Positions 3,271 through 44,657 of a stretch of 64,000 nt of DNA are shown piece by piece (positions within the stretch are counted from its first letter, which is position 1; each line of letters begins with the position of its first letter). Under the pieces are notes generated by a model. That model was not told the origin of the DNA. It worked only from the letters and a program-made list of their open reading frames with translations, and did not search any database. Made by a program: the position numbers and the translations under genes. This DNA comes from Magnetococcales bacterium (GTDB taxonomy: Bacteria > Pseudomonadota > Magnetococcia > Magnetococcales > UBA8363): assembly GCA_015228925.1 (NCBI GenBank), contig JADGCQ010000002.1:62001-126000 (forward strand), in the 5' to 3' direction.

Positions 3271-3849
3271 AGAATCGATGAAGTCGCGTTTTGCTACTCC
3301 ATTGGGGTTTGCACAGTACGCAGACCCTTTTTCAGAGTTTTCCGAAGAACTTACACAAGTCTTGGTTCTCAACGAGTCCGAACCTCGAACCTCGAACCTT
3401 GCCCACATCCCCTTTTCCCCGTCCAGTGTGGATGCATCAATCATTCAATATTCCCTGATTTTTTCCATACTTGTTTAAATTGCCGTCAAAAAGAAACAGC
3501 CTCAAAAACAACCAAAATAGCCTCGAACCTCGAACCCAAAATTTAAGGGTGTGACTATCGATTTTTCGAGCCTTGCGCTCCCGTACTGTAAAAACAACTT
3601 GGAAGAACCTACCTTGTGTGGGGCCGTCGTCTCAATGTCGAAGGGTAGGCGGTCAGGCCACCAACCGATAACGGTTCCTCTTCCCGTAGAATCTGATTCG
3701 CGCCAGGAAATTATTCATATTCTTTTGAACCCGCCATTCTTGCCACACCCTGATTTCGTCTTCCCACCACCCAATATTTTTCCCCCTTTGACACCCAGTA
3801 GTTTGCCCCATTAATTCACCGAATACCGATCAGCAGCAGAAAAATGGGG
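3271..3849. other. Gene-free stretch
   Basis: No credible gene. It contains short CCTCGAA tandem pieces (around 3379-3400 and 3520-3535) and AT-rich or C-rich low-complexity DNA. A reading frame at 3551-3814 is rejected because it lacks a ribosome binding site and has a Pro-rich, random-looking product. Confidence 0.5.
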
Positions 3850-4071
3850 TCAGGTCTTGTATTGCGACATTTCCTTTTCAAAACGTTTTACTGCCCGGTT
3901 GACCGTAGCGTAATGGACATCAAAAAGGTCGGCAATTTCTTTCATGGAATAATCACCCGAGAGGTAGGCTTAAGCCATGGCCTGATAGTGCAGAGCTGCC
4001 TTGTCATACTCTGCAAGCGACTTGACCAGTGGTCTCCTCTGACGTCGAGGCACCTCTCGCAGATCGTTCGC
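3850..4071 (-). pseudogene. C-terminal remnant of REP-associated tyrosine transposase (RayT)
   Basis: Reading the minus strand from 4071 gives a 73-residue piece ending at the stop 3850-3852: PRRQRRPLVKSLAEYDK, one in-frame TAA, then AYLSGDYSMKEIADLF and HYATVNRAVKRFEKE. This is the typical C-terminal helix-turn-helix tail of Y1-type REP-associated transposases. The HUH/Tyr catalytic half is missing, and the internal stop makes it non-functional. The end of the frame overlaps the repeat TGGGGTCAGGTCTTG, the same motif that makes up the cluster at 4714-4960, as expected for a transposase bordered by its own REP sequence. Confidence 0.75.
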
Positions 4072-4214
4072 CAAGACCTGACCCCAGGCATGTGTGACGG
4101 GTGAAAGGCTACATCCTTAGTTGGCGAAATCATCAAGGAGGAATTTTGTCTGCTGTCTGGTCGGGTCTCGTGGTACACTTATCCCAGTTGTCACCCTGCA
4201 AAGGAGGTTTTCCC

Positions 4215-4499
4215 ATGAGTACCGCGATTGCGTTTGACACGTATGTCTTTGTGAAAAAACTCAAGGATGCTGGTATGCCGGAGGAGCAGGCCAGAATTTT
4301 GGCTGAGACCCATACCGAACTGATTGAGGAACGTTTGGCGACAAAGCGGGATTTAAAAGAACTGGAAACCAACCTCCAGCGCGACATCGAGTTTGTCCGG
4401 CGCGACGTAAAGGAGATGGAATTACGGCTCATGATTCGCCTTGGCGGAATACAAGCTGCATCGATAGCGATTGTAGCGGCACTGGTAAAGTTGCTTTGA
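4215..4499 (+). CDS. DUF1640-type coiled-coil membrane-anchor protein (copy 1)
   Basis: 94 residues. The ATG at 4215 follows AAGGAGG at 4201-4207. Layout: a short N-terminal segment (FDTYVFVKKLKDAGMPEEQA), a coiled coil (LATKRDLKELETNLQRDIEF and on, about 45-75), then one C-terminal hydrophobic helix (IQAASIAIVAALVKLL). This is the usual plan of small DUF1640 proteins, whose bacterial role is unknown. A second copy lies at 5053-5292. Upstream leader (TCTCGTGGTAC, ATCCCAGTTGT) and downstream sequence are shared by both copies, so the whole unit was duplicated. Confidence 0.8.
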   Translation: MSTAIAFDTYVFVKKLKDAGMPEEQARILAETHTELIEERLATKRDLKELETNLQRDIEFVRRDVKEMELRLMIRLGGIQAASIAIVAALVKLL

Positions 4500-4557
4500 T
4501 CCCTAGGGAAAGTTGCTCTTGCATGACCCCTCCCCGCATAGCGACCTCTTTGACATA

Positions 4558-4713
4558 TCATTTCAATTGCTGTTGTATCGTAATAATCTTTGGTAAAATT
4601 CTGAGAAATTTTTCTACTAATTCTGGATCAAAATGGCGGCCACTTTCCTTCTTGATCAATTCCACAGAATCACCGATCGGCCAAGCAGCCTTGTAAGGAC
4701 GTGTACTTGTCAA
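4558..4713 (-). pseudogene. Duplicated 3' tail of the HD-GYP gene
   Basis: Positions 4479-4713 repeat 5272-5506 with a constant offset of 793 and only a few substitutions. The part 4558-4713 corresponds to the last 52 codons of the HD-GYP gene at 5351-6382, including its stop. There is no start and no catalytic region, so it is a dead fragment. The similarity breaks off exactly where the REP-like cluster begins at 4714. Confidence 0.8.
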
Positions 4714-4960
4714 CATACAAGAATGGGGTCAGGTCTTGCATTGCATACAAGAATGGGGTCAGGTCTTGCATTGCGACATTTCCTTTTCAAAACGTTTTAC
4801 CGTAATGCAAGACCTGACCCCAGACATGTGAATGTCGTAATGCAAGACCTGACCCCAGGTGTGCAGCCTGACCCCAGGTGTGTGAATGTCGTAATGCAAG
4901 ACCTGACCCCAGGTGTGTGACCCCAGGTGTGCAGCCTGACCCCAGGTGTGCAGCCGTGGC
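4714..4960. repeat. Cluster of REP-like TGGGGTCAGGTCTTGCATT repeats
   Basis: The motif AATGGGGTCAGGTCTTGCAT occurs twice in direct orientation (about 4723-4770). Its complement AATGCAAGACCTGACCCC then occurs at least three times (about 4802-4910), with shortened copies of CCTGACCCCAGGTGTG between them. Direct and inverted copies can pair as hairpins. A small piece of the transposase end (GCGACATTTCCTTTTC) is also repeated here. These are likely products of the RayT family represented by the remnant at 3850-4071. Confidence 0.75.
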
Positions 4961-40643: not shown

Positions 40644-41042
40644 ATGAACCGCAAAAAGCGCAAAAAGGATCATTTGAACCTTCCCACGGACTATGCGGGA
40701 CTGCTGGCTTTGGTCAAGGAGCGGGTACGGTTGGCGCAGTATGCTGCACTGAAAGCGGTCAACACCGAACTAGTTGGGCTTTACTGGGACATCGGGCGGA
40801 TGATCGTGGAGCGGCAGGATGCTGAAGGCTGGGGCAAGGCGGTGGTGGAAAATCTGGCCGCAGATTTACGGGCGGAATTTCCCGGCGTAGGCGGTTTCTC
40901 GTCCTCCAACTTATGGCGAATGAAGGGTTTTTTTGAAACCTATCAAGGGGCTGAAAAACTCGCACCAATGGTGCGAGAAATCGGTTGGAGCCATAACATC
41001 GTCATCATGGAGTACTGTTCCGATCCGCTGGAACGAGAATAG
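40644..41042 (+). pseudogene. Truncated YhcG-type nuclease (DUF1016 N-terminal part)
   Basis: 132 residues that match the N-terminal DUF1016 domain: VNTELVGLYWDIGRMIVERQ, AVVENLAADLRAEFPGVGGF, SSSNLWRMKGFFETYQ and IGWSHNIVIMEYCSDPLERE. Family members run to about 340 residues and carry a PD-(D/E)XK nuclease domain at the end. Here the frame stops right after PLERE, exactly where the second domain should begin, so the nuclease part is gone. The break lies a few bases before an inverted-repeat copy at 41049 and the helicase gene. Confidence 0.8.
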
Positions 41043-41046
41043 AATA

Positions 41047-41148
41047 ATGGATATACTGTCCCCGGATTTCCCTGACACACACACGACCGAGATCTGCCTG
41101 CAAGTCCTGAAAGCAGCCATCGCCGATTTATCAGGAGACAATAAATGA
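41047..41148 (+). CDS. Possible 33-residue leader peptide before the helicase
   Basis: A short frame MDILSPDFPDTHTTEICLQV and on, ending in the ATGA that overlaps the helicase ATG (41145-41148). It could be a coupled leader peptide or merely the remnant of a deleted gene. Its start lies on the inverted repeat at 41049-41069. Low support. Confidence 0.25.
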   Translation: MDILSPDFPDTHTTEICLQVLKAAIADLSGDNK

Positions 41149-43304
41149 TAACAATTGTACAAGGAACAACGAAGAAACCAGTATCCTCACAACGACTAGC
41201 AAATTTTTTTGCATGTCGGGACGGATACGACGGATTTCTTTACATAGGTTATCCAATTATTGGGACATCAGAGGGACCATATCCTATCGATGCGTTGTTG
41301 GTATCCAGAGACAAAGGGCTAGTCGTATTCAGCCTTGTGGAAGGCCGTGATATGGCTAATTCAGAAGAAACCCAAGACGACTGCTATAACAAGTTGGAAT
41401 CAAAACTTCGCGCCCACAAGACCTTGATGCACGGACGTAACCTCTGTGTCCCCATTTATCCGGTGACCTTTGCGCCAGCACGCGACGATGTAGAAAATTT
41501 ATCCAAAAAAGAATATTCAATTTGTAATGAGGAAAACCTTGATGCGTGGCTCGATAACCATAAGTGGAATGAGCCTATCCACTTCGAAGCGTTGGTTTCT
41601 GTAATCCAAGCGATTTCGACCATACGGAAAGGGCGCAAAAAGCGGGATGTACAAAAGAAAGACTCACGCGGTGCAAAGCTAAAACGGCTGGAAGACTCTA
41701 TCGCAAACTTGGACAATCTTCAGGGACGTGCGGTCATTGAGACAGTTGACGGGGTGCAGCGGATTCGTGGCCTGGCCGGTTCTGGTAAGACTATCGTTCT
41801 TGCTTTAAAGGCAGCATACCTTCACGCACAGCACCCGGACTGGAAGATTGCTGTTACATTTCAGACCAGATCTTTAAAGGGCCAATTTCGTCAACTCATC
41901 AACACCTTCACCATTGAGCAAACCTATGAAGAGCCAGACTGGGACAATATCCAGATAATTCATGCTTGGGGTGCTCCGGGCGGTGGTGACCGAAACGGAC
42001 TTTATTACAGCTTTTGCCAAGCCCATGGCGTGGAGTATCACGATTTTAGCTCAGCCAAAAGCAAGTTTGGACAAAAGAAGGCGTTTGAAGGCGCATGCCA
42101 GAAAGTACTGGATGAATGTCCCAGTCCCACAGGTATTTATGACGCCATTCTTGTGGACGAGGCCCAGGACTTTCCACCCTCATTTTTGCGTATGTGCTAT
42201 GAGTTGCTCAAGCCTGAGAAGCGGCTCGTTTATGCCTACGACGAACTTCAGAACCTGAACTCACAGTCACTTCCATCTCCAGAAGAAATCTTTGGCAAAC
42301 ATGCTGACGGAACGTTCCGGGTACGCTTTTCACCAAACCAGCCGGACAAGCCCCAGCAGGATGTGATTCTTGAAAAATGTTACAGGAACTCGCGACCTGT
42401 GCTGGTCACCGCACATGCTCTAGGTTTTGGCATTTATAGAACCCCGGATGCAAACGTCGAAACCGGCTTGGTCCAGATTTTCGACCACAATCAGCTTTGG
42501 CTCGAAGTCGGTTATGAAGTAACAGGCGGGAAATTGGCGGATGGCCAGGAAGTAACCCTCTCGCGCTCTCAGGAAAGTAGTCCGGCTTTTTTGGAAGACC
42601 ACTCGCCTACAGAGGATTTAATCCAATTCCACTGCTTCAAATCTAAAGAAGAACAATATCAATGGGTTGTCAAACAAATTTATTCTAACCTCTCAGAGGA
42701 CGAATTACGCCCGGATGATATTGTGGTCATTAACCCCGACCCTCCTACAACGAGAGATGCTGTCGGCCCTATCCGCAAGCAGCTTCTTGAACTCAGGGTC
42801 AATTCGCATCTAGCTGGTGTTGATACATCTCCAGACGTTTTCTTTGACGCCGACAGTAAGTCTGTTGCGTTTACCGGTATTTACCGAGCAAAAGGAAACG
42901 AGGCCGGTATGGTCTACATCATAAATGCACAGGACTGTTATTCATCATTTGGGAATGTGGCGGGTGTGCTGCGAAATCGGCTTTTTACCGCTATTACTCG
43001 AAGCAAGGCCTGGGTCCGAGTTCTAGGGGTGGGTAATGGCATGCAGGCCCTCAAGAATGAGTTTGAGCAGGTTAGGAAAAACGCATTCAGTCTCTGTTTC
43101 CGCTATCCTACAGAAGACGAGAGGAAGCACCTAAATATTGTTAATCGTGACATGACGGAAGATGAACGTCGTCGTGTGCGTAAGAAGAAAGATGATCTTG
43201 CGCAACTTCTTGACGACCTCGAAGCTGGCCGGGTCTATCCAGAAGACCTGGGTGCAGATCAATTGAGACGATTAAGAGTACTGCTAGGCAGGGAGGCAGA
43301 ATAA
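41145..43304 (+). CDS. UvrD-like SF1 helicase with nuclease-like N-terminus (defence candidate)
   Basis: 719 residues. Residues 1-150 look like a NERD/PD-(D/E)XK-type fold (YPIDALLVSRDKGLVVFSLV), but the usual K after the second acidic residue is not clear. The SF1 helicase core follows: Walker A RGLAGSGKTIVLALKAAYL (209-216), motif II LVDEAQDFPPSF (338-342), EKCYRNSRPVLV, the UvrD-type TGIYRAKGNEAGMVYIINAQ and LFTAITRSKAWVRV. The C-terminal 90 residues are charged and helical. RBS AGGAG precedes the ATG. The stop overlaps the next gene by TAATG. Helicases of this form paired with a DUF2290 gene look like a two-gene defence module; function is inferred from family and context. Confidence 0.85.
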   Translation: MITIVQGTTKKPVSSQRLANFFACRDGYDGFLYIGYPIIGTSEGPYPIDALLVSRDKGLVVFSLVEGRDMANSEETQDDCYNKLESKLRAHKTLMHGRNLCVPIYPVTFAPARDDVENLSKKEYSICNEENLDAWLDNHKWNEPIHFEALVSVIQAISTIRKGRKKRDVQKKDSRGAKLKRLEDSIANLDNLQGRAVIETVDGVQRIRGLAGSGKTIVLALKAAYLHAQHPDWKIAVTFQTRSLKGQFRQLINTFTIEQTYEEPDWDNIQIIHAWGAPGGGDRNGLYYSFCQAHGVEYHDFSSAKSKFGQKKAFEGACQKVLDECPSPTGIYDAILVDEAQDFPPSFLRMCYELLKPEKRLVYAYDELQNLNSQSLPSPEEIFGKHADGTFRVRFSPNQPDKPQQDVILEKCYRNSRPVLVTAHALGFGIYRTPDANVETGLVQIFDHNQLWLEVGYEVTGGKLADGQEVTLSRSQESSPAFLEDHSPTEDLIQFHCFKSKEEQYQWVVKQIYSNLSEDELRPDDIVVINPDPPTTRDAVGPIRKQLLELRVNSHLAGVDTSPDVFFDADSKSVAFTGIYRAKGNEAGMVYIINAQDCYSSFGNVAGVLRNRLFTAITRSKAWVRVLGVGNGMQALKNEFEQVRKNAFSLCFRYPTEDERKHLNIVNRDMTEDERRRVRKKKDDLAQLLDDLEAGRVYPEDLGADQLRRLRVLLGREAE

Positions 43305-43990
43305 TGCCGACACCTGAGGACATTAACCATCAAGTGGAAAAACTTACGGCTGACCTTGTTGGCCTGAGCCTTTGTGATCGACTGAATTTTCCAGCGTTGC
43401 GCAATCTTGGCCAAGGATGTCGAGAAGTCGGTATTGGCAATCAAGGGAACATCAGTTTTGCACTGAAGAATGTCCCTTATCACGAAATTTATTCCGAACT
43501 AGAGCGAACCCAGACATACAACTTGAGAATGTTGGACGGAGCACTCATCCAAATGATGTATCGCTTCCGGGATAACCAAATTGAAACACACCGGTTGGCA
43601 TTTTTCCCGTCGCCATTTTTAGAGGAGTTCCAGAACAACCCCGAAATATATCTTGAGGATGAAATCTACGCTGAGGTAATCAAAAAGAATATCGTGCCAT
43701 TCCCTTTGAGGTTTGATTTTGACTGCCGGAACGGTGTTACAGTCGATGTCGATCATCCGATATCACACTTGACCTTAGGGCAGTATCAGAATTGCCGTAT
43801 TCCAGTTAGTTCCCCCCTAACGCCATATCACTTCATCGGCTTTATTCTGAGAAATTTCTACAACACGGCTTATCGCCGATATTGCACGCAGATCTCTACT
43901 TTTCCGCATGCTTTTGATGTTTCAATCACTGATAGGGAAATGGAGTTGATTTACGTCCAGGCTCCAACTCAGCAAAGACGAGCAGTATGA
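43304..43990 (+). CDS. DUF2290 family protein
   Basis: 228 residues. The start overlaps the helicase stop by one base (TAATG). Features match DUF2290: YHEIYSELERTQTYNLRMLD, GALIQMMYRFRDNQIETHRL, AFFPSPFLEEFQNNPEIYL, FPLRFDFDCRNGVTVDVDHP, HPISHLTLGQYQNCRIPVSS and GFILRNFYNTAYRRY. The family has no defined biochemical activity that I know of, and its members often neighbour nucleases and helicases. Tight coupling suggests it forms a complex with, or regulates, the helicase. Confidence 0.82.
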   Translation: MPTPEDINHQVEKLTADLVGLSLCDRLNFPALRNLGQGCREVGIGNQGNISFALKNVPYHEIYSELERTQTYNLRMLDGALIQMMYRFRDNQIETHRLAFFPSPFLEEFQNNPEIYLEDEIYAEVIKKNIVPFPLRFDFDCRNGVTVDVDHPISHLTLGQYQNCRIPVSSPLTPYHFIGFILRNFYNTAYRRYCTQISTFPHAFDVSITDREMELIYVQAPTQQRRAV

Positions 43991-44037
43991 GATGCCGAAA
44001 TTCGGGGAACAAATCCGGTGACAGAATATCCGTTTCC

Positions 44038-44130
44038 CTAATCCCTACTGCAATCTGGAACTTTTTCCGGCTCCGTCCCGGAGAAGGCATAAACCAGCAC
44101 ATTGGTATCCAGAAACAGTTCATCGGGCAT
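44038..44130 (-). pseudogene. Truncated VapC-type PIN toxin
   Basis: 30 codons starting at ATG 44130, which overlaps the end of the antitoxin gene. MPDELFLDTNVLVYAFSGTE is a textbook PIN-domain start with the first catalytic Asp (LDTN). It goes out of family at KVPDCSRD and stops at 44038-44040. The remaining ~100 residues with the other acidic residues are missing. The break is a few bases from the inverted repeat at 44011-44031. Confidence 0.75.
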
Positions 44131-44323
44131 TGGCCTGTTCCCGGTTAAAACGCCATTCCCGCGTATCGAGAACAGGAATATCACCCTGTTCCGTGTCCGT
44201 TTCTTGAATAGCTTTCCCCACCTCGTGCCGTTGCTCCAAAAACAAAACAAAATCCAGCACCCGATCCGCCAAACCGTCGGGAAGGCATTTGACTTCATAA
44301 TAAATGCGTTCAGCCGTGTTCAT
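44120..44323 (-). CDS. VapB-like antitoxin (DUF2281 type)
   Basis: 67 residues from ATG 44323, behind GGGAGGGTGCC. MNTAERIYYEVKCLPDGLAD and RVLDFVLFLEQRHE are typical of the small DUF2281 antitoxins that pair with PIN toxins. The C-terminal arm (DTREWRFNREQ) would wrap the toxin. Its toxin gene is truncated, so this is an orphan antitoxin. Confidence 0.75.
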   Translation of the reverse strand: MNTAERIYYEVKCLPDGLADRVLDFVLFLEQRHEVGKAIQETDTEQGDIPVLDTREWRFNREQANAR

Positions 44324-44544
44324 CGTGGCACCCTCCCATCCCAAATCCGGGAACAGTACATCCCATCCAGATTTCCTCAGGGTTTTGACTTTAAATAAAA
44401 ATCTTCAATTTTTACTTTTGATCGAAGTATTTGACTTTCAATTGAAAGCCTAAAGCTGGAAGTGTTTTTATTTAAATTCAAAAACACAGTCAAAAGCGGA
44501 GCATGGAAACCTTTTTGTTTCAATTCAAAAACAAAATCAAAACC

Positions 44545-44657
44545 CTGGGGGCAATCCCCCAGACCCCTTTTTCTTTTTAATAGTTTTAATATGAGGGGGA
44601 CTAAACGACTACGGTAGTAAACAGAAACCTCGCGGATACCGGGGGAGATTCCCCCGG
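44545..44657 (-). terminator. Pair of GC-rich hairpins after hdrB
   Basis: CCGGGGGA and TCCCCCGG (44639-44646, 44650-44657), and CTGGGGG with CCCCCAG (44545-44551, 44556-44562) are compact hairpins downstream of hdrB. The second is flanked by T-rich DNA on both strands (GGTTTTGATTTTG on the minus strand, CCCCTTTTTCTTTTT on the plus strand), so it can end transcription from either side. The intervening region 44324-44679 is AT-rich with repeated TTGACTTT-like pieces and no gene. Confidence 0.6.

Follow-up and report, generated by a model that had tools for sequence, protein, structure and literature searches.

A complete helicase-DUF2290 gene pair among REP-like repeats at a synteny break in a Magnetococcales chromosome

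How did a pair of putative defense genes come to lie between matching inverted repeats and two broken genes in the chromosome of a magnetotactic-type bacterium of the order Magnetococcales? In the 64,000-nucleotide stretch of DNA that we analyzed (the window), a 21-bp motif on the reverse strand at positions 41049-41069 (AAATCCGGGGACAGTATATCC) recurs in inverted orientation on the forward strand at 44011-44031 (AAATCCGGTGACAGAATATCC), with 19 of 21 positions identical and a chance expectation in the window of 0.00. Only a helicase gene and a DUF2290 gene, coupled by TAATG, lie between the two copies. This arrangement had been recognized in the original prediction, which read it as a mobile two-gene cassette, plausibly antiphage. 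Two parts of that reading stand, namely, that an antiphage role is plausible and that the pair is foreign and patchily distributed; a transposon-like unit with inverted repeats of its own does not fit the evidence below. We consider it probable, with good confidence, that the locus is a complete, horizontally acquired Helicase-DUF2290 anti-phage module within a strain-specific patchwork, bordered through REP-linked recombination or deletion and not through a single transposition.

The gene pair matches a known anti-phage system

The first gene (41145-43304, forward strand) encodes a 719-residue SF1 (UvrD-like) helicase that fits the PADLOC Helicase model PDLC03002 along its length (residues 1-715 of 719, 1165 bits). 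The DUF2290 gene (43304-43990, forward strand, 228 residues) adjoins it in the same orientation, with a start that overlaps the helicase stop, and its product matches PADLOC PDLC02999 over residues 1-220 (349 bits) and Pfam PF10053 (176 bits, E 6e-52). Compared with their counterparts in another carrier genome (G033), the helicase, which is 80% identical, shows a dN of 0.13 and the DUF2290 protein a dN of 0.18, with dS saturated for both. Low dN alongside saturated dS indicates that both genes are under purifying selection.

Helicase+DUF2290 has been reported to defend against phage, with specific inhibition of T7 in tests in Escherichia coli (Rousset et al. 2022, PMC9122126). The present pair resembles that system in having both components at full length, adjacent, on the same strand, and with overlapping start and stop codons, and in the mobile or variable contexts in which such pairs occur. 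It differs in being chromosomal, in Magnetococcales, amid REP-like repeats and broken genes, and in being known from sequence. The full-length match to a tested system makes an anti-phage role plausible for 41145-43990, in agreement with the original prediction. Judged by its sequence, the segment is a further complete copy of a defense system that was already known.

A homologous pair is present in 5 of the 48 genomes of the order Magnetococcales that were searched, with both genes together in every carrier, and these counts support a foreign, patchy distribution. Plasmids from E. coli, Nostoc, and Acinetobacter carry further homologous pairs, there with unrelated genes as neighbors. Searches of phage records gave no match to the helicase, and those of viral contigs gave no relative of DUF2290. 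A possible third gene upstream, represented by the end of a short open reading frame before the helicase (tail DFPDTHTTEICLQVLKAAIADLSGDNK), had no relative in the loci fetched, and a conserved third gene of the system was absent from the other helicase-DUF2290 loci compared.

SF1 helicases are common repair enzymes, and the surroundings of the pair hold broken genes, both of which would accord with a housekeeping DNA repair locus, or a decayed one, having no part in defense. We regard this as highly improbable: neither frame is shortened and purifying selection acts on both, presence in 5 of 48 genomes together with carriage on plasmids is unlike the behavior of housekeeping genes, and the Helicase+DUF2290 family has been tested as anti-T7 (PMC9122126).

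The N terminus of the helicase suggests how a defense module of this kind might act. Across seven homologues, D49, E66, and Q77, which correspond to residues of a PD-(D/E)xK-like site in the N-terminal domain (window positions 41145-41630), are invariant, and R or T replaces the expected catalytic lysine of the ExK motif. The AlphaFold models were built on 3-sequence alignments and are poor overall (pLDDT of 46.1 for the helicase and 43.6 for DUF2290); residues 1-160 are the only fair part of the helicase model, a mixed alpha-beta domain with a pLDDT of about 70-87 in most blocks. The helicase also matches the PADLOC NERD+UvrD model. Based on the retained residues, the fair fold, and this match, the sequence suggests that residues 1-160 form a NERD/PD-(D/E)xK-like, nuclease-like domain that lacks the ExK lysine and whose activity is uncertain. 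A search of the PDB by fold found nothing significant, and its weak top hits, which include Card1 (E 0.24) and a Pyrococcus repair endonuclease (E 0.96), at most fit the nuclease-like reading; a PDB sequence search returned nothing useful. The translationally coupled proteins may work together in a single complex or pathway: the SF1 helicase, driven by ATP and carrying the N-terminal NERD/PD-(D/E)xK-like domain, would engage phage DNA intermediates, and DUF2290 would serve as its partner or effector.

The flanking repeats belong to a dispersed REP-like family

If the pair were a mobile cassette that had entered whole between yhcG and vapC, with the 21-bp repeats as its terminal inverted repeats, the repeats should be tied to their cargo. 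The motif is found in 41 copies in the 4.25-Mb genome that holds the window (G000) at up to 3 mismatches, compared with 0 for a reversed-pattern control, and most of these dispersed copies are without helicase-DUF2290 cargo. The original prediction had itself named genome-wide occurrence of the motif as an ordinary REP sequence as evidence against a cassette, and it had looked to the same cassette with the same repeats elsewhere for confirmation; the four other helicase-DUF2290 loci of the order (9-15 kb each) are without the motif. The repeats, therefore, do not travel with the genes. A search of 41 genomes recovered the motif from 20, among them 7 of the 8 members of the genus, with as many as 44 copies in a genome.

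In its typical form, the motif is part of a 76-bp inverted doublet (AAATCTGGGGACAGTATATCCATTTCACAGAGGTTCCAGATTACAGTAGGGAAATTGATATACTGTCCCCGGATTT). Eight doublets have an identical start-to-start spacing of 56 bp, and the doublet is able to form a hairpin with a computed folding energy of about -12.4 kcal/mol. In the closest relative of the window genome (congener G004, contig C177), motif copies directly precede the 5' ends of two RAYT genes, whose products carry Y1_Tnp and an HVHL motif. REP doublets, or REPINs, go with RAYT transposases (Nunvar 2010, PMC2817692; Bertels and Rainey 2011, PMC3116915), and the family fits this REPIN/RAYT picture in being dispersed as mostly extragenic, hairpin-capable inverted doublets of about 70-76 bp and, in one congener, in clustering next to a RAYT gene. 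It departs from REPINs in that its copies number tens and not hundreds, the copies that flank the pair are half-doublets, and a cognate RAYT of the motif was not found in the window genome. The 21-bp arm also lacks the GTAG/GTGG head of classical REPs and an internal palindrome, with a fold of just -0.3 kcal/mol on its own; because of this we call the family REP-like and not classical REP. An Rfam search of the 39- to 46-kb region found nothing.

Alignment showed that both copies flanking the pair are the remaining halves of longer 76-bp doublets. The left arm at 41049-41069 is missing the outer half of its doublet, and the right half-doublet (44011-44061, forward strand) consists of the arm followed by the inner spacer, which extends to the junction with vapC. 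A third copy with 2 mismatches, at 44343-44363 on the forward strand, had been overlooked in the original prediction. Directly beyond it, at 44372-44613, lies a different dispersed repeat of roughly 215-240 bp with an inner hairpin (CTGGGGGCAATCCCCCAG), of which there are dozens of copies in the window genome and in congeners (G004, G002, and G007).

Elsewhere in the window, at 3845-4911, we observed six copies of another dispersed repeat (AATGCAAGACCTGACCCCA), with DUF1640-like sequence inside at about 4094-4366. This repeat also flanks a RAYT gene in the same genome (G000:C90:201-521). Another RAYT gene (L036, 6120-6770, on G000:C151) has a second repeat family (GGGGACACCATACCTATTTCC) on its flanks. 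This single genome harbors several REP-like families whose GGGGACA cores are related.

Both neighbors are truncated and do not resume on the far side

To the left of the pair, a DUF1016/YhcG-type gene (40644-41042, forward strand; DUF1016_N, PF17761, 118.5 bits) retains 132 codons, ends after ...DPLERE, and is missing its C-terminal part; the open reading frames of its relatives are about 350 aa. To the right, a vapC fragment (44062-44130, reverse strand) keeps only its first 23 codons (...SGTEPEK; 22 residues by the earlier count) before running into repeat sequence. Both truncations had been correctly predicted. An intact vapC is present in congener G005, with 81% DNA identity starting at 44063. 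The vapB-type antitoxin frame (44120-44344, reverse strand, 74 aa, weak DUF2281 match) overlaps the vapC start and is uninterrupted, and, with the third motif copy, repeats lie on both sides of the vapBC fragment as well. Neither missing part, of the DUF1016 gene or of vapC, was found within 40.0-46.0 kb.

Several of these features are what insertion of a transposon-like cassette would leave. Near-identical inverted motifs tightly bracket the pair, as short inverted repeats lie on both sides of the cargo of a MITE or an IS-bounded composite element, and both neighbors are cut at the motif. The distribution of the pair is foreign and patchy, and the 7-bp word CTGGAAC (41028-41034, forward strand) recurs at 44055-44061, at the other outer junction. 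The cut ends, also expected from a transposition-like event, and the shared word (chance about 0.075) count against the reading that we prefer. Other evidence makes a cassette with terminal inverted repeats very unlikely. Insertion would split one gene, but here two different genes each miss their other half, and neither resumes on the far side. Unlike a MITE or an IS-bounded composite element, the segment carries neither a transposase nor a recombinase within its repeats and shows no convincing target duplication, and its repeat family, which is present here as incomplete halves of a longer doublet, is not tied to the helicase-DUF2290 cargo. We did not count CTGGAAC as a target duplication because a match of this kind is close to chance (about 7.5%) and the word belongs to the repeat consensus; it is possibly microhomology, but indistinguishable from chance. 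Matching inverted repeats that flank a defense module, tempting as that reading is, need not be transposon ends.

The pair lies in a strain-specific patchwork

Comparison with five congeners showed that the block on the left is conserved up to about 39.41 kb, where a GGDEF gene ends (39415), and that the HdrB block on the right is present in all five at 90-95% aa identity, with similarity ending at the HdrB end at about 44.68 kb (44680). In the congeners compared, the two blocks are on different contigs, and in G005, G006, and G003 other sequence continues for at least 9 kb beyond each block. Since the blocks are conserved and yet apart in congeners, the interval between them is a patchwork specific to this strain, at a point where synteny breaks. 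The empty sites with intact yhcG and vapC that the original prediction had proposed to look for were not found, because congeners lose synteny at this same interval. Both flanks are absent from the assembly of the closest relative, G004, which is 78% complete, and this counts against our preferred reading.

In another REP-rich interval, the window genome and G004 can be compared directly: the interval spans 4.3 kb in one of the two genomes but 11.9 kb in its counterpart (94-95% DNA identity there), and collinearity changes tens to hundreds of base pairs from REP copies. A RAYT-linked repeat family in Magnetococcales, then, borders genomic patches that differ between close relatives.

According to the explanation we prefer, a Magnetococcales chromosome would have acquired the 41145-43990 module horizontally, in what is now a patchwork of about 39.4-44.7 kb between blocks that are conserved but nonadjacent in congeners. 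The flanking repeats are arms of the REPIN-like, RAYT-related family, dispersed and clustering in variable intervals. The module borders, and the loss of the ends of yhcG and vapC, would most likely trace to events of recombination or deletion at REP copies or adjacent to them. The gene content, the pairing, the selection, the repeat family, and the synteny break are shown by the data, whereas the origin of the borders, phage defense by this copy, and its molecular action are inferences.

Other candidate defense genes next to REP-like repeats

In the window genome, an FRG-domain protein (L031, 10924-11814, on G000:C195; PADLOC PDC-S15, 349 bits) is encoded exactly between two REP-like arms. 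Also in this genome, a candidate defense pair (L035, 2975-4101, on G000:C10), composed of a SLATT-like membrane protein (PADLOC PDC-M50A) and a ThsB-type TIR protein (PF08937), adjoins copies of the same repeat family. These loci were hand-picked and are for this reason a lead and not a statistic.

A broader proposal would make the doublets themselves the borders of cassettes, with RAYT- or homology-driven recombination moving single-operon segments, often defense genes, as circles or linear patches; the cassette in the window would then have been opened within the doublet loop. The left and right half-doublets would indeed join as one complete doublet in a circular segment, the segments with the FRG gene and with the SLATT-like and TIR genes would be further examples, and the shifts in collinearity with G004 close to REP copies would be in keeping with such movement. 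Set against this, REPs are known to occupy extragenic DNA in variable regions in any case, several REP-bordered segments are without a defense gene, no excised circle or empty site was seen, and the proposal draws on a handful of hand-picked loci. We consider this proposal, with the window cassette opened within a doublet loop, unlikely. In general form, REPIN-like hairpin doublets of Magnetococcales would mark the borders at which recombination moves single-operon cassettes, above all those with defense genes, into and out of sites in the chromosome. Such movement would resemble that of integron cassettes, but through RAYT or homologous recombination; we think it quite unlikely. The position of this repeat family at the borders of differing patches offers an inexpensive, testable lead on the turnover of defense genes without an integrase or a transposase.

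The contig with the FRG-domain gene holds one further arrangement: at L031 7500-10600 (G000:C195), short related DUF1640-like genes alternate with REP-like doublets, apparently co-duplicated, and the counterpart of this array in G004 has a different arrangement of copies.
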